Origin: Actinomycetes bacterium
GTDB taxonomy: Bacteria; Actinomycetota; Acidimicrobiia; Acidimicrobiales; Ilumatobacteraceae
Assembly: GCA_025360105.1 (NCBI GenBank)
Contig: JANYCT010000089.1
Location: 1-64,000, forward strand
DNA: 64,000 nt
Reading direction: 5' to 3'
The position numbers were made by a program, and so were the translations under genes. Positions 29,534-47,636 of this stretch are shown in pieces. Numbering within the stretch: position 1 is the stretch's first letter; every line of letters begins with the position of its first letter. Under the pieces are notes generated by a model that had not been told where the DNA came from, did not search any database, and saw only the letters and a list, made by a program, of their open reading frames with translations.

Positions 29534-29938
29534 TCAGGACACCGCCACCCGTGCTACGTGTAACCCGGCGACGACCGCGTGGTCATGTTCGTAGGTGAGT
29601 AGTTCCGAGACATAGCCGACGTGCAGCCAGCGAATTTGGTCGACCTCGTCGTTGGGGCGGAATTCGCCCACGACCTCCTGCATCGCCCAGTAACGCACGC
29701 GCTTCATTCGACCCTTGCGATCGATCGATCGGGTGTGGGGCAGTTCGTCGCCAGCCACGCAGTACAGGCCAGTCTCCTCGCGGACCTCGCGCAATGCGCA
29801 AGCCAACGCTGTTTCGCGACGGATGAGTTTGCCCTTGGGCAGCGACCAATCTCGCTGTTGGGGACGATGGACCAGCAGAACTTCGACGTCGCGATCGCGC
29901 GTCATTCTCCATACGACTCCGCCAGCGGCTTCGATCAT
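29534..29938 (-). CDS. NUDIX hydrolase
   Basis: Small pyrophosphohydrolase of 134 residues. The Nudix box is complete: G-K-L-I-R-R-E, seven residues, then REVREETGL. The WSLPKGKL opening and the histidine/tyrosine pattern resemble MutT/Ap4A-type enzymes; in actinobacteria such proteins are often fused to or paired with a histidine-phosphatase domain, which is absent here. The ATG at 29938 begins IEAAGGVVW, the family start. Substrate not assignable. The pyruvate-kinase-like pseudogene lies downstream, and the CYTH gene lies upstream on the same strand. Confidence 0.9.
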   Translation of the reverse strand: MIEAAGGVVWRMTRDRDVEVLLVHRPQQRDWSLPKGKLIRRETALACALREVREETGLYCVAGDELPHTRSIDRKGRMKRVRYWAMQEVVGEFRPNDEVDQIRWLHVGYVSELLTYEHDHAVVAGLHVARVAVS

Positions 29939-30034: not shown

Positions 30035-30508
30035 TCACATCGGCATGCCGTCCCGGGCAAGTGCGGCGTTGGTCCACGCCCTCTGGCCAGTCACCTCGTG
30101 ACCGAACCAGGCCGGAGGCACGAACTCCAACGCTGCTGACTCGGTGGCGAACTCGACCTCGACGGTGTAGAGCCCGATGAGACCTGCGTCGTACACGTCG
30201 ATCTCGGCCACCGGAGATCCGGGTTGATCCAACGTGACGCGGTGGCGGGTCTTGGAAATGCGGCCCCCACCCGTGTGCGGCCAGAGCGCCTCGGCCTGTT
30301 CGGGGGACAACGGGAGCTCCACCTCGGTACGGCTCATCCCGCTGCCGGCCTTCACGGTGAGTTGCGCGCCGCCCTCAGCAATTCGGACACGTACGCTGAT
30401 GTCTCCATCGTCGGCGATGTAGCCCTGACGAAGCCGGTCGCCGGCTCCGAGCGTCGCTCGATCGGGTAACTCACTGAGCACGAATTTGCGTTCGATCTCC
30501 ACCGTCAT
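30035..30508 (-). CDS. CYTH-domain protein (triphosphate tunnel metalloenzyme)
   Basis: A 157-residue protein with the family signature EIERK at residues 4-8 (MTVEIERKFVL) and alternating charged strands (VRVRIAEGGAQLTVKAG; RTEVELPLS; AEIDVYDAGLIGLYTVEVEF) expected to form the tunnel that binds triphosphates. Members act as inorganic triphosphatases, thiamine triphosphatases or class IV adenylate cyclases. The ATG at 30508 is 37 bases from the divergent CHAD gene, so the two probably share a regulatory region. The link CYTH-CHAD favours a polyphosphate or triphosphate substrate. Confidence 0.9.
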   Translation of the reverse strand: MTVEIERKFVLSELPDRATLGAGDRLRQGYIADDGDISVRVRIAEGGAQLTVKAGSGMSRTEVELPLSPEQAEALWPHTGGGRISKTRHRVTLDQPGSPVAEIDVYDAGLIGLYTVEVEFATESAALEFVPPAWFGHEVTGQRAWTNAALARDGMPM

Positions 30509-30545
30509 CGACCAAGTATGGCTCGCGCGGAGTACCTTCGATGTT

Positions 30546-32099
30546 GTGAGCAAATCGCTCGTCTCCTCGTTCGTTTCGCACGAGCATGGCCCGTCGGTCG
30601 CAGTGGCGCGTCTGGGCGAACTCGGTTTCGAGTCCGGCATCTCGCCGAGGGTAACGAGATGGTTGCTCGACACGTTCGATGGCCGCGTGCATCGAGCGGG
30701 CCTGCAACTGGAGCTGAGCAACGTCGACGGTGCACCGTTGGAACTGATTCTGAGCGGCCACGGAACTGCTCGCTCGCACGTCAGTGTTGATGTCACTCCA
30801 CGATTCGCCGGTGATATTCCCCCAAGCCCATTCCGATCGCGACTCTCTGCCATTGTCGAGATCAGGGCGCTGCTCCCGGTGATCTCGGTTGAATCGATCG
30901 CTACGCCGTTCACGTTGCGCGATCGCAGTGGCAAATCGCTCGTCACGGCGACCTTGTTCGAAGACATCGAGGTCGCGGAACACGCTGACATCGATCTGCT
31001 TCCCTGGGTTCTCGAGGTTCACGAATCGATCGGATACCCCAAGCCAGCAGGCGCGGTTCGCGATGCCCTCGACCATCTTGGGCTCGAGCGTGTAGGGGTC
31101 GACGTACTCGGTATGGCCGCTGACTCGGCGGGTATTGATCTGGCGGGCTTTGCCGGCATGCCCGGAGTTCCTCTCGATCCGACCATGCCCGCGATCGATG
31201 GTTTCCGCGCCGTGCTGGTAAATCTGGCAGACACGATCGCGGCGAACTGGGACGGCGCAGCTGACCAGATCGATCCCGAGTTTCTCCACGACCTCCGAGT
31301 CGCGGTGCGACGCACCCGCTCGTTGCTCGCACAGGGCAAACAGATCTTGCCCGAAGACGTGATACACCGCGCCCGGCAGGAGTTTGGTTGGCTCGCCGGG
31401 CTCACTGGACCCGTACGAGATCTCGACGTGTACCTGATCGAGTGGGAGAGTTACACGGGTATGTTTTCTGCGGATGCTCTTGGTGCGCTCGAGCCCGTAC
31501 GCGAGCTGCTTGAGCGTCGACATGAGAATGCGTCCGCGGCGTTGGCTACCGCGTTGCGGTCGCGCGGGGCCGGCGACTGGATAAACGAGTGGCGCGAGTG
31601 GTTGACGGAGGCAATTCCCACGGCAAGCGCTGGTATCCATGCGAACCGTCATCTCGGCCACGTTGTGGCCAAGCACATACGTCGTGCGCACGAGAATCTG
31701 ATCGACGACGGCCGCCTCATCAACGCCGACACACCGGCAGAGGAGGTGCACAACCTGCGCAAAGACGCGAAGAAACTGCGGTACCTCTTCGAATGTTTCG
31801 CCACTCTTCTGCCCAAGTCTCCTCGTAAGGGTTTCGTGCAACGGCTGAAGGCACTGCAGGACAACTTGGGCGCACACCAAGACGCGGAAGTTCACGTGGC
31901 CGAGCTGCGCGCCATCTCCCATGAGTTGTACGCCGTCGGCGCATCGCCGGCCACGATGTTGGCGATCGGTCAACTCACTGAGAAGCTCGACCAGCGACGG
32001 ATCGAAGCTCGTGTTGCCTTTGCCGAACGATTCGATGCGTACGACACCGCAGCGACGCATCGCGCGCTTGCCGATGCGCTCGAAGGGATCGCGCCGTGA
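30546..32099 (+). CDS. CHAD-domain protein with degenerate CYTH-like N-terminus
   Basis: The C-terminal part (about 235-500) is a CHAD domain, an all-helical fold with conserved histidines and basic residues that binds inorganic polyphosphate: FLHDLRVAVRRTRSLL near 246 and EVHNLRKDAKKLRYLFECF near 400. The N-terminal part (residues about 1-200) looks like a CYTH barrel that has lost the EIERK motif: LLDTFDGRVHRAGLQLEL and RALLPVISVE correspond to CYTH strands. The GTG at 30546 is a plausible start. Its stop overlaps the GTG of the next gene (ParA-like) by 4 bases, so the two are translationally coupled. Confidence 0.88.
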   Translation: MSKSLVSSFVSHEHGPSVAVARLGELGFESGISPRVTRWLLDTFDGRVHRAGLQLELSNVDGAPLELILSGHGTARSHVSVDVTPRFAGDIPPSPFRSRLSAIVEIRALLPVISVESIATPFTLRDRSGKSLVTATLFEDIEVAEHADIDLLPWVLEVHESIGYPKPAGAVRDALDHLGLERVGVDVLGMAADSAGIDLAGFAGMPGVPLDPTMPAIDGFRAVLVNLADTIAANWDGAADQIDPEFLHDLRVAVRRTRSLLAQGKQILPEDVIHRARQEFGWLAGLTGPVRDLDVYLIEWESYTGMFSADALGALEPVRELLERRHENASAALATALRSRGAGDWINEWREWLTEAIPTASAGIHANRHLGHVVAKHIRRAHENLIDDGRLINADTPAEEVHNLRKDAKKLRYLFECFATLLPKSPRKGFVQRLKALQDNLGAHQDAEVHVAELRAISHELYAVGASPATMLAIGQLTEKLDQRRIEARVAFAERFDAYDTAATHRALADALEGIAP

Positions 32100-32857
32100 A
32101 GATACTTGCGACCTACAGCATCAAAGGCGGCGTCGGCAAGACCACTGCCGCAGTGAACCTGGCCTACGAGGCCGCCTGCTTGGGCGCACGAGTGCTGCTG
32201 TGGGACATCGATCCACAGGGTGCGGCCACTTTCTTTTTTCGTATCAAACCATCGGTAAAGGGTGGAGCCAGCAAGCTCATCGGCAAGCAAGGAGAGCTCG
32301 AGCCGCACGTACGTGCTACAGACTTCACCGGTCTCGATCTCGTGCCCGCCGACTTCTCGATGCGCAACCTCGACTTGCACCTCGATGATCGCAAGCGACC
32401 GACCCGGCGGCTCACGACACTGCTCGATCCGCTCGCCGGTCGTTACGACGTTGTCATCATCGATTGTCCGCCCGGGGTCACGCTTGCCAGCGAGAGCGTG
32501 TTCGCGGCCGTCGACGCGCTGCTGGTGCCGATCATTCCGAGCACTCTCTCGCAGCGCACTCTCGAGCAACTTTACGAATTCCTCGCTGAGCTCCCGCTAC
32601 GTCCGTTGGTGTTGCCGTTTGCCTCGATGTTCGACCGACGTAAGAAATTGCAGCGAGATCTCGTTGCGTCGCTCGCGGTCGAAGCGCCGGACTTCCTTCC
32701 CACCACTATTGCCAACGCAAGCATCGTCGAGCACATGGGCATCGAGCAGGCGCCCGTGGCGGTGTACGCACCGAACAGTGCTGCGGCGGTGGCATACCGT
32801 CAACTCTGGAACGACATCGCCGGTTACCTCTGGGACACAACCGGATTGGTGGTGTGA
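32096..32857 (+). CDS. ParA/MinD-family ATPase (orphan)
   Basis: A 253-residue deviant-Walker ATPase: KGGVGKTT at residues 10-17 with the signature lysine, the switch region DIDPQGAAT (about 37-45), and VVIIDCPPGVT (about 119-129). No ParB gene is next to it. It overlaps the CHAD gene and is followed immediately by a YkgJ-like gene. ParA-type ATPases without ParB often position protein or storage complexes on the nucleoid (McdA with carboxysomes is the model). Coupling to a polyphosphate-binding CHAD protein suggests polyphosphate granules as cargo; this is inference. Confidence 0.9.
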   Translation: MKILATYSIKGGVGKTTAAVNLAYEAACLGARVLLWDIDPQGAATFFFRIKPSVKGGASKLIGKQGELEPHVRATDFTGLDLVPADFSMRNLDLHLDDRKRPTRRLTTLLDPLAGRYDVVIIDCPPGVTLASESVFAAVDALLVPIIPSTLSQRTLEQLYEFLAELPLRPLVLPFASMFDRRKKLQRDLVASLAVEAPDFLPTTIANASIVEHMGIEQAPVAVYAPNSAAAVAYRQLWNDIAGYLWDTTGLVV

Positions 32858-33469
32858 ATGAGCGATACAGAGCGTCTTCAAGCCGGCGACTTCTCGACGT
32901 GGTTGGTCGAAATCCACGGTGCGATCGCGGGGGAGCGCGCATCTGACGTGCCATGCGGAACGTGCACGGCGTGCTGTACCTCGTCGCAGTTCATTCACAT
33001 CGCGCCAGACGAAACCGACGCGCTCGCGCACATCCCGTCAGCGCTGTTGTTTCCTGCACCTCGGCTTCCGCAGGGTCATGTGCTGATGGGCTACAACCAA
33101 CATGGTCACTGTCCGATGCTGGTGCACAACCGTTGCTCGATCTATGAGCACCGACCACGTACCTGCCGCACGTATGACTGCCGTGTCTTTCCGGCAACGG
33201 GGCTCGAGCCCGACGAGGCTGACAAGGCCTTGATAGCGCAGCAGGCGCGACGGTGGCAGTTCAGCCACCCAACTGACGACGATGAGGTTCTGCACGATGC
33301 CGTGCGCGCCGCCGCGGCGTTCCTGCAGGAGCACCCTTATGCACTTCCCGATGGCGTGTCGACGGCCAGTCCCACTCAATTGGCGGTGCTCGCGATTGAG
33401 ATGCACGGCCTGTTTCTTGAGGGCGGCGAGCACGGCCCGAGTGGCGTGACTGGTGACCGAAGCCCCTAA
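32858..33469 (+). CDS. YkgJ-family cysteine-cluster protein
   Basis: A 203-residue protein with the family's metal-binding cysteines: CGTCTACC at residues 33-40, then CPMLVHNRCSIYEHRPRTC and YDC at about 86-109. YkgJ/UPF0153 proteins probably bind zinc or an Fe-S cluster; function unknown. Its ATG directly follows the stop of the ParA-like gene, so it belongs to the CHAD-ParA unit. Confidence 0.85.
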   Translation: MSDTERLQAGDFSTWLVEIHGAIAGERASDVPCGTCTACCTSSQFIHIAPDETDALAHIPSALLFPAPRLPQGHVLMGYNQHGHCPMLVHNRCSIYEHRPRTCRTYDCRVFPATGLEPDEADKALIAQQARRWQFSHPTDDDEVLHDAVRAAAAFLQEHPYALPDGVSTASPTQLAVLAIEMHGLFLEGGEHGPSGVTGDRSP

Positions 33470-45761: not shown

Positions 45762-46559
45762 TTACGACTCGACGTAGTGCGGGTCCCACAACCGGATGCC
45801 GCCGAGGATGCCAGCGTTGGGGTCAATCAGCGTGGCCTTGGCACCGAGGTCGATGGTGAGGTGACGCGCATTGCCTCCGCCAATGAAGAGGTGGTCGTAG
45901 AAATACAGTGCATCGAGCACATCGATGGTGCGGGCCACCCGACGGTTCCACTTCTTCTTGCCGATTCGCTTTCGCGTCGCGTCACCGACGTAGTCGTTGT
46001 ATGTGATGTTGTCGAACAGCGGATGGTGCGACAGTTCGGTGCGTGGGCCGAGGTGTCCGTTTTGGAAGATGCTGCTGCCCATGCCGGTGCCGAGCGTGAT
46101 CACGAGTTCGACTCCAGCACCTTGGACGCAGTCGAGGCCCTGCATGTCGGCATCATTGATCACACGGCACGGCGCTGCAAACGCACCACCCAGCGCCCCC
46201 GCAAGATCGAACTGATCCCACTGGGTGCGCAAGCCCTTGTCGACCGCCGTTCCCGGGCCATGTTCGGTGACAAAGTGTGGCGCTGAGAGGATGAGCCCGT
46301 TTCGCACAACGCCGGGGAATCCAACGGAGACACGATCGAACGATTCGAGCGGTTTGACGAGATCGACCAACGCGTCGACCATTGCTTGCGGCGCACAGGG
46401 ATACGCGGTCTCGACGCGCACGCGATCGCTCAACATGGTGCCGTCTTGTTTCAGTAGTGACGCTTTCAGACCGGTGCCGCCGATGTCGATGGCCAGCGTC
46501 ACAGGCGTCAAGCTGCGCGCCCGCGGGCGGGGCGTGGCACGGGTGATAGGTGTCGACAT
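45762..46559 (-). CDS. ppgK: Polyphosphate glucokinase (ROK family)
   Basis: Phosphorylates glucose using inorganic polyphosphate, and in actinobacteria often ATP as well. AIDIGGTGLKAS at residues 23-34 is the phosphate-binding loop, VGFPGVVRNG and INDADMQGLDCVQG are ROK/PpgK signatures, and TLGTGMGSSIF is the second phosphate loop. The 265-residue length and the KKKWNRRVARTIDVL stretch fit PpgK rather than other ROK kinases. The ATG at 46559 is separated by only 30 bases from the divergent glucose dehydrogenase gene. Together they offer two entries for free glucose. Confidence 0.9.
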   Translation of the reverse strand: MSTPITRATPRPRARSLTPVTLAIDIGGTGLKASLLKQDGTMLSDRVRVETAYPCAPQAMVDALVDLVKPLESFDRVSVGFPGVVRNGLILSAPHFVTEHGPGTAVDKGLRTQWDQFDLAGALGGAFAAPCRVINDADMQGLDCVQGAGVELVITLGTGMGSSIFQNGHLGPRTELSHHPLFDNITYNDYVGDATRKRIGKKKWNRRVARTIDVLDALYFYDHLFIGGGNARHLTIDLGAKATLIDPNAGILGGIRLWDPHYVES

Positions 46560-46589
46560 GGAATCACCGTACAGCGGTATCGTGCGTGC

Positions 46590-47636
46590 ATGCGCGCCAT
46601 CACCGTTGTTCCCGGCTCGGCCGGTTCGGCCCAACTCACCGAGATGCCCGACCCCCCGCTGGAGGACGGGCCCATGCTGGTGCAGACTATGTATATCGGC
46701 ATGTGCGGCACCGACCGCGAGATCATCCACGGTGACTACGGAACAGCGCCTGCCGGCGACGATCGTTTGATCATTGGCCACGAATCACTGGGCCGCGTGC
46801 TCGAGGCACCGGCCGACTGCGGCTTCGCTGCCGGCGATCTGGTGGTAGGCATCGTGCGTCGTCCCGACGCTGTGCCGTGCCCGAATTGCGCCATCGGCGA
46901 GTGGGACATGTGCCGCAACGGTCAATACACCGAGCGAGGCATCAAAGAACGCCATGGCTTTGCGAGCGAGCGGTATCGCATCCGGCCCGAGTTCGCGGTG
47001 AAGGTCGACCCAGCGCTGCACCGTGTTGGAGTGTTGCTCGAACCCACGAGCGTCGTGTCGAAGGCGTGGGAACACATCGAGCGCATCGGCAGCCGCGCCC
47101 GTTGGACCCCGTCGCGTGTATTCATCACCGGGGCGGGGCCCATCGGACTCCTCGCTGCGCTCATCGGCACCCAGCGCGGACTCGATGTGCATGTGTTCGA
47201 TCGCGTGACCGATGGTCCGAAGCCACAACTCGTTGCCGATATCGGAGCCACTTATCACAGCGATTCCATCGAGTTGGCCTGTGGTGCGGCCGACGTGGTC
47301 ATCGAGTGCACCGGTGTGTCGCAGTTGATCCTGTCGGTGATCGGCAACACGTCGCCCGGTGGCATCGTGTGCCTCACCGGGGTGTCGTCGGGTGGGCGCG
47401 CCTTTCCCATCGATGCTGGTCAGGTCAATCGCAGTTTGGTGTTGGGCAACGAGGTCGTGTTCGGATCGGTGAACGCGAACCGTCGTCACTACGAGACCGG
47501 CGCTGAGGTGTTGGCGAGGGCCGACGTATCGTGGCTCGAGCGATTGATCACGCGTCGTGTACCTCTCGACACGTGGTCCGACGCGTTGGCGTTACAACCT
47601 GACGACGTGAAGGCCACCATCGAATTCGCTGTGTGA
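46590..47636 (+). CDS. Glucose 1-dehydrogenase-like zinc alcohol dehydrogenase (MDR)
   Basis: A 348-residue medium-chain dehydrogenase. The catalytic zinc site reads MCGTDREI (C39) and GHESLGRV (H64, E65); the structural-zinc loop is PCPNCAIGEWDMC; the Rossmann motif is ITGAGPIGLLAALIG. The long ERHGFASERYRI stretch and GTDREIIHGDYG fit the glucose dehydrogenases known from archaea and actinobacteria. It would oxidise glucose to gluconolactone with NAD(P). A TATCGT at 46578-46583 only 6 bases before the ATG suggests a leaderless mRNA. Sugar specificity is inferred from resemblance and from the divergent ppgK. Confidence 0.85.
   Translation: MRAITVVPGSAGSAQLTEMPDPPLEDGPMLVQTMYIGMCGTDREIIHGDYGTAPAGDDRLIIGHESLGRVLEAPADCGFAAGDLVVGIVRRPDAVPCPNCAIGEWDMCRNGQYTERGIKERHGFASERYRIRPEFAVKVDPALHRVGVLLEPTSVVSKAWEHIERIGSRARWTPSRVFITGAGPIGLLAALIGTQRGLDVHVFDRVTDGPKPQLVADIGATYHSDSIELACGAADVVIECTGVSQLILSVIGNTSPGGIVCLTGVSSGGRAFPIDAGQVNRSLVLGNEVVFGSVNANRRHYETGAEVLARADVSWLERLITRRVPLDTWSDALALQPDDVKATIEFAV

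Follow-up and report, generated by a model that had tools for sequence, protein, structure and literature searches.

Polyphosphate granules are relevant to the survival of starvation by bacteria and to the removal of phosphorus from waste water. A review from 2025 on how bacteria position their organelles lists AlgP as the sole polyphosphate-granule positioning protein and leaves open whether ATP is spent on placing the granules (PMC13052382). Partners of the ParA/MinD ATPases act via a short, basic and disordered N-terminus (PMC10241942, PMC12204374); the words CHAD and polyphosphate are absent from the main text of the survey of this ATPase group (PMC10241942). In Acidithiobacillus, ppk, parA and CHAD genes stand side by side in a published folD-ppk-parA-CHAD cluster, which can be likened by its gene labels to the locus described here (PMC6416229, PMC10892726). 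The accessible texts assign no granule role to that ParA, one paper invoking chromosome partitioning and the other citing plasmid partition (PMC6416229, PMC10892726). Here we analyse a 64,000-nucleotide stretch of DNA from an actinomycete of the family Ilumatobacteraceae (contig JANYCT010000089.1, positions 1 to 64,000; hereafter the window), in which a gene for a CHAD protein, of a domain family that binds polyphosphate, overlaps the gene for a ParA-type ATPase. With moderate confidence, we read these two proteins as partners that together position polyphosphate granules; a ParA with CHAD as its cargo adaptor is the best-supported interpretation of the sequences and predicted structures. The adjacency of the two genes is in part already in print, for the single genus Acidithiobacillus. 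The breadth of the pair, the lack of ParB beside it and the missing catalytic motif in the tunnel domain of the CHAD protein are new within the reach of an open-licence literature search, in the accessible texts of which we found no proposal of a ParA positioning polyphosphate granules via CHAD.

The pair and its parts are laid out in the window as follows.

30546..32099, forward strand: CHAD gene, GTG start, 517 amino acids (PF05235, E=2e-52)
30546..31148, forward strand: residues 1-201 of the CHAD protein, triphosphate-tunnel (CYTH) fold without the catalytic ExExK (AlphaFold2 model, fold searches)
31149..32099, forward strand: residues 202-517 of the CHAD protein, polyphosphate-binding CHAD domain, stop codon included (PF05235, match to 6QVA)
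32096..32099, forward strand: GTGA overlap of 4 nucleotides, with the ParA start codon on the CHAD stop (sequence)
32096..32857, forward strand: ParA-type deviant-Walker ATPase, GTG start, 253 amino acids, of a CHAD-linked subfamily (AAA_31, E=3.9e-33)

The GTGA overlap allows translational coupling of the two genes to be inferred. An earlier note on this DNA had proposed that the pair spaces polyphosphate granules over the nucleoid, and had offered conservation of the adjacency as a test, an occurrence here alone counting against the idea. The pair proved to be present in Actinomycetota, Alphaproteobacteria, Gammaproteobacteria and Thermodesulfobacteriota. Of the ParA matches among 61 related genomes, 14 are strong (187-553 bits) and the other 35 weak, none scoring above 91.4 bits, and a same-strand CHAD gene directly precedes ParA in 12 of the 14 strong matches, the window included, versus none of the 35 weak ones. 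Each species was also scanned through a single genome, with confirmation by tblastn, and the best 80 of 316 loci with ParA relatives were kept. Seven of these 80 come from outside Bacteroidota (three from Alphaproteobacteria, one from Nitriliruptoraceae, two from Thermodesulfobacteriota and one from Enterovibrio), and in all seven CHAD lies directly upstream of ParA. A profile made from 17 CHAD-linked ParAs was used for samples of single phyla and classes, with adjacency scored by a CHAD profile on the flanks together with Pfam. It matched in 24 of 396 Actinomycetota genomes (13 of these 24 CHAD-adjacent, the window included, and three of the 24 shared with the set of 61 relatives), six times in 337 alphaproteobacterial genomes (three CHAD-adjacent) and 45 times in 44 of 274 gammaproteobacterial genomes (31 of the 45 CHAD-adjacent), the last two samples including the previously known pair carriers G061, G062 and G067, of which G062 and G067 were the sample centres. 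On Paracoccus plasmids, ParA matches were obtained in six records, and in every one a CHAD match immediately adjoins the ParA; two of the three such plasmids inspected are annotated with the order CHAD-ParA-CYTH-NUDIX and the third with CHAD-ParA-CYTH, a NUDIX gene still being detected there by profile. Altogether, CHAD lies directly upstream of ParA in 65 loci, 62 found by profile and three more by Pfam. Given this recurrence across distant groups, the adjacency is more than chance, and the module occurs in isolates (Paracoccus plasmids, Enterovibrio) as well as in metagenomes.

The same related genomes show which gene accompanies which ParA. ParB_N matches are present in 57 of the 61, including the window's own genome, and directly adjoin 32 of the 35 ordinary (weak-match) ParAs on the downstream side, versus none on the contigs of the 12 CHAD-paired ParAs (that of G023 ending inside ParA). 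CHAD, not ParB, is the constant neighbour of the paired ParA, and the description of the window's ParA as an orphan in the earlier note agrees with the genomes tested. These observations bear on the notion that the module segregates DNA, with CHAD or polyphosphate serving as the scaffold on which chromosomes or plasmids are partitioned. Six copies do lie on Paracoccus plasmids and the ParA is nearest to Soj, but the genomes have ParB elsewhere, beside their ordinary ParAs, at least four of the pairs (L172, L182, L191 and L228) lie on chromosomes, on contigs of 3.4 to 5.0 Mb, and another study found no nucleic-acid binding by the CHAD domains that it tested (PMC6537752). We accordingly regard a role in DNA partition as very improbable.

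Several features suggest that the two genes behave as a unit. The CHAD stop overlaps the ParA start in 42 of 62 pairs, by 4 nucleotides in 35 and by 1 nucleotide in five, and the gap is within 20 nucleotides in 54 of the 62; for these overlap counts the ParA start was placed nine residues before the KGG motif, where L188 and L229 have no start codon. Pairwise distances among CHAD proteins correlate with those among their ParAs (r=0.75 for 56 pairs, the best of 1000 permutations reaching 0.18), a correlation to which shared descent contributes to an unquantified extent. Natural CHAD-ParA fusions were absent from the open reading frames (ORFs) of 94 loci. Two pairs with a short CHAD (L199 and L200) have a further gene on the opposite strand after ParA, and the beginning of its product resembles a SixA-type phosphatase.

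The ParA itself retains the residues of the nucleotide switch. The deviant Walker A motif with its signature lysine, Walker A' and Walker B are all present, and the switch residues K10, K15, T16, D37, D39 and D123 are invariant in 24 of 24 sequences. Its model (predicted local distance difference test, pLDDT, 86.3) has the Soj/ParA fold, with a template modelling (TM) score of 0.86 and E=3e-21 by Foldseek, and its ten top structural matches are Soj and ParA proteins. A quick tree of 112 ParAs places 62 of the 65 CHAD-paired rows in one set, which comprises 78 rows and has a Shimodaira-Hasegawa-like approximate likelihood ratio test (SH-aLRT) value of 98. The set consists of all 61 rows with a long CHAD, one with a short CHAD, nine from Bacteroidota and seven other CHAD-less rows; the three remaining short-CHAD rows fall outside it. 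Thereby a scatter of ParA annotations becomes one recognisable family. A large group of Bacteroidota ParAs (L007-L009, L011-L015 and L017-L081), mostly from Chitinophagaceae, is 39-44% identical to the window's ParA.

The CHAD protein is confidently modelled throughout by AlphaFold2 (pLDDT 95). Its residues 202-516 match Chlorobium CHAD structures, which are the nearest solved structures to this domain among the matches listed and include the CHAD-polyphosphate complex 6QVA (Z=33.9). Residues mutated in the Chlorobium protein CtCHAD comprise His253, Arg256, Arg260, Arg296, Arg418 and Tyr419 (PMC6537752). These six sites align to H248, R251, R255, R291, R412 and Y413 of the window's protein, and all 53 paired CHADs compared share the six polyphosphate-contact residues; further CtCHAD sites vary, Lys441 being K or R in 48 of the 53 and Arg438 being K or R in 33, with Q in the window. 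Residues 1-201 adopt the CYTH/tunnel fold, with VIA-align Z-scores of up to 14.4 to single-domain CYTH/triphosphate tunnel metalloenzyme structures and Foldseek E-values from 6e-5, a fold that Pfam did not recognise in this segment. None of the 62 CHADs paired with ParA has an N-terminal ExExK, and at least eight of them are without that stretch (six have no such segment, and L092 and L093 are cut by contig ends); the one ExExK match in the paired CHAD of L185 lies far inside, at residue 122. Among 40 unpaired CHADs, hand-picked from longer lists, 13 have the motif. A full-length CHAD protein with 36.6% identity over 94% to that of the window is encoded on the Thiodictyon plasmid pTs417 (L290, 5929-7515), where it has no ParA and lies about 3 kb from a pst operon.

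Around the pair, the window holds these further elements.

29534..29938, reverse strand: NUDIX hydrolase gene, 134 amino acids (PF00293, E=1.6e-16), a recurrent accessory gene of the CHAD-ParA module
30035..30508, reverse strand: standalone CYTH (triphosphate tunnel) enzyme gene (PF01928, E=3.5e-7), ExExK intact (EIERK)
30509..30545, no strand: divergent spacer of 37 bp between the CYTH and CHAD genes (sequence)
32858..33469, forward strand: co-directional CxxCxxCC (YkgJ-like) gene (PF03692, E=2.9e-8), judged to lie outside the system

Pfam and the sequence confirm the placing and naming of the CYTH, CHAD, ParA and CxxCxxCC genes in the earlier note, as well as the divergence of CYTH from CHAD, the two starts being 37 bp apart; the NUDIX gene had been overlooked. 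Relatives of the CYTH protein occur in 19 of 62 pair loci and relatives of the NUDIX protein in 14 of 62, versus none of 32 ParA loci without a profile-detected CHAD, three of which carry a short CHAD by Pfam. PPK2 is found within 5 kb in five of the 62 pair loci (among them the near-copies L170/L171 and L186/L189) and PhoU within 5 kb in four, each versus none of the 32 other ParA loci. Since ExExK is missing from the paired CHADs and retained in 20 of 21 separate CYTH ORFs of the pair loci, it appears that a neighbouring CYTH enzyme, where one exists, has taken over catalysis from the CHAD protein. In two genomes of one genus (L230 and L232) the order ppk1-CHAD-ParA-(CYTH::NUDIX) is gapless, with CYTH and NUDIX within one ORF (L230 5569-6648, L232 4077-4988), and on one Paracoccus plasmid pst-phoU-phoB lies upstream of the pair. 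For ppk1, 10 of 58 pairs have it within 10 kb versus about 0.35 expected, a rough null that assumes a single genome size and takes in related genomes and broken contigs, with G063-G066 left out of the 62.

This enzymatic setting also suits another explanation, in which ParA acts as an ATPase switch, recruiting or regulating polyphosphate enzymes at the granule or the membrane and transporting no granule. BcsQ, a relative of ParA, is thought to act in such a way in cellulose secretion, and it is among both the Pfam and the Foldseek relatives of the window's ParA. The frequent company of ppk1, CYTH and NUDIX genes would fit a switch, as would the want of the usual partner arm in the CHAD protein. 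So would a genome of the window's own genus (L252, 340-3230) that has the same CYTH-CHAD arrangement with PPK2 in place of ParA. In a relative of the same family (L260, 3-2865), the genes after CHAD encode a DUF47/PhoU-like protein and then a PHO4-family phosphate transporter. Speaking against a switch, the ten best structural matches, all Soj or ParA, rank above BcsQ, and the adaptor-like CHAD is constant where the adjoining enzymes vary. We therefore hold a purely regulatory switch to be possible but rather unlikely.

If the pair does position granules, its operation might be pictured as follows. The CHAD protein would coat polyphosphate granules and serve as the cargo adaptor, and ATP-bound ParA dimers would attach to the nucleoid. 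Granule-borne CHAD would trigger ATP hydrolysis and a local release of ParA, and the granules would track the resulting ParA gradient, leading to their spacing and their sharing between daughter cells; movement of the granules over the nucleoid by ParA is inferred. At the granule, the CYTH and NUDIX enzymes could trim phosphate chains or nucleotides, while the tunnel domain without its catalytic motif is possibly a ParA-docking or chain-holding part. The more general proposition is that bacteria have a dedicated, ATP-driven segregation system for these granules. In it, a CYTH-CHAD protein devoid of catalysis would take the role of ParB and a coupled ParA would space and partition the granules, and the system would have reached Actinomycetota, Pseudomonadota and Thermodesulfobacteriota at the least, in part by way of plasmids. 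We consider this proposition finely balanced.

A number of observations weigh against granule positioning by the pair. It is patchy, being present in two of nine genomes of the window's genus. CHAD adjoins ParA in none of the 73 Bacteroidota loci, as judged with an early profile built from few sequences that could miss divergent CHADs, and any CHAD is absent by Pfam from 24 of the 33 tested genomes, out of the 73, that have a ParA relative, so that on gene content some of the Bacteroidota relatives of the CHAD-linked ParA must do something else. The nine Bacteroidota ParAs of the tree nest inside the CHAD-paired set, as do the seven other CHAD-less rows (L181, L195, L107, L201 and L221-L223). 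A hidden CHAD beside ParA was sought in L221, L222, L223, L181, L195 and L201, and none was found: the upstream ORFs scanned encode an aminotransferase (L221, L223), a PIN protein (L181) and a TldD-type protein (L201), and upstream on the opposite strand lie a KAP NTPase (L222) and an alpha/beta hydrolase (L195). A Halomonas plasmid examined across its record start likewise had no CHAD. A basic, disordered N-terminus was looked for in the CHAD protein and not found, its model being ordered nearly throughout, and the N-terminal net charge is at least +2 in 10 of 53 paired CHADs, with start sites approximate. CHAD and ParB lie on opposite sides of their respective ParAs; because CHAD is upstream, it is not literally in the position of ParB. 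The presence of ppk1 had to be dropped as evidence, since 58 of 62 pair genomes and 55 of 61 relatives have it and it does not discriminate. Moreover, six relatives (G019, G038, G045, G048, G056 and G060) have ppk1 within about 10 kb of a CHAD that is not paired with ParA, and ppk1 closeness therefore goes with CHAD as such and not with the pair. Finally, a small ribbon-helix-helix (RHH) protein is encoded upstream of CHAD in three Paracoccus plasmids and in Enterovibrio, as in these two cases.

L102, 6288-6473, strand not stated: small RHH-type protein just upstream of CHAD (Paracoccus/Enterovibrio)
L016, 6296-6469, strand not stated: small RHH-type protein just upstream of CHAD (Paracoccus/Enterovibrio)

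The Paracoccus protein is basic at its ends and has a Pfam ParG match of E=0.003, below the cut-off; in Paracoccus and Enterovibrio the RHH protein could be the true, or a second, partner of ParA.

In a further reading the genes are merely co-regulated, as in a phosphate stress operon, with ParA having some other partner and not touching CHAD. The CHAD-less ParA relatives in Bacteroidota and elsewhere, the RHH proteins, and the presence of the same type of CHAD without ParA in relatives can all be enlisted in favour of co-regulation. Nevertheless, the fixed order of CHAD then ParA, mostly overlapping, persists in distant classes while the other neighbours change, and the divergence of the two proteins is matched, even allowing for the contribution of shared descent. 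Mere co-regulation hence appears unlikely to us, and granule positioning through CHAD as the adaptor of ParA is the reading that we retain.

What survives of the proposal in the earlier note is its core, which gains from the recurrent, mostly overlapping and ParB-less pair, from the polyphosphate-gene context and from the invariant polyphosphate-contact residues; two of its supports had to be given up. One was the YkgJ-like gene as a part of the system. Its ATG abuts the stop codon of ParA in the window, but a relative of its product occurs in no other of the 62 pair loci, and even the bare C..C..CC pattern is seen within 4.5 kb in just three of the 62, the window included. The other was a polyphosphate glucokinase encoded in the window, taken as firm evidence. 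A motif search of the window's ORFs found a ROK-family kinase (45765-46784, reverse strand). Its top match in NCBIfam, polyphosphate--glucose phosphotransferase, scores 94.6 bits where the cut-off is 250, and the identity of the kinase as a polyphosphate glucokinase is uncertain. Two further identities for the locus were rejected. An anti-phage system was set aside on the PADLOC result, which comprised one 36-residue match in ParA and one NUDIX-family match, with none for CHAD, CYTH or the CxxCxxCC protein, and a phage origin on two matches at 31.8% identity.

In comparison with described systems, the pair resembles the carboxysome-positioning McdAB system in combining a ParA-fold ATPase with a putative cargo binder, and Foldseek finds McdA (6nop, 6non) with E-values of 2e-16 to 2e-15. 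It differs in that the cargo binder is a structured CHAD/tunnel-fold protein and the proposed cargo is polyphosphate; in the window, ParA stands between the genes for CHAD and the CxxCxxCC protein, no search having been aimed at McdB or carboxysome genes. With ParABS it shares the ATPase fold (Soj, TM 0.86) and a ParA with one constant gene neighbour, but this neighbour is an upstream CHAD rather than a downstream ParB, and no ParB lies on the contigs of the 12 paired ParAs in related genomes. Phosin, one of the CHAD proteins of polyphosphate granules, likewise has a CHAD domain with the six polyphosphate-contact residues; unlike such proteins, the present one is paired with a ParA and carries an N-terminal tunnel domain without ExExK. 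The ygiF-type CYTH-CHAD polyphosphatase (5a60) likewise has a tunnel fold followed by a CHAD fold, in contrast to which the paired proteins are without the catalytic ExExK, the motif being found in the separate CYTH gene where one is present. In proposed function, there is a parallel to AlgP, a histone-like protein of Pseudomonas aeruginosa for which an even spacing of polyphosphate granules over the nucleoid has been proposed (PMC9239181, PMC13052382). By its description, AlgP is a single protein that binds both DNA and the granule, with ATP use unknown (PMC13052382), whereas the module described here supplies a named and testable candidate ATPase, together with a candidate adaptor, for the question of the energy spent on placing these granules.

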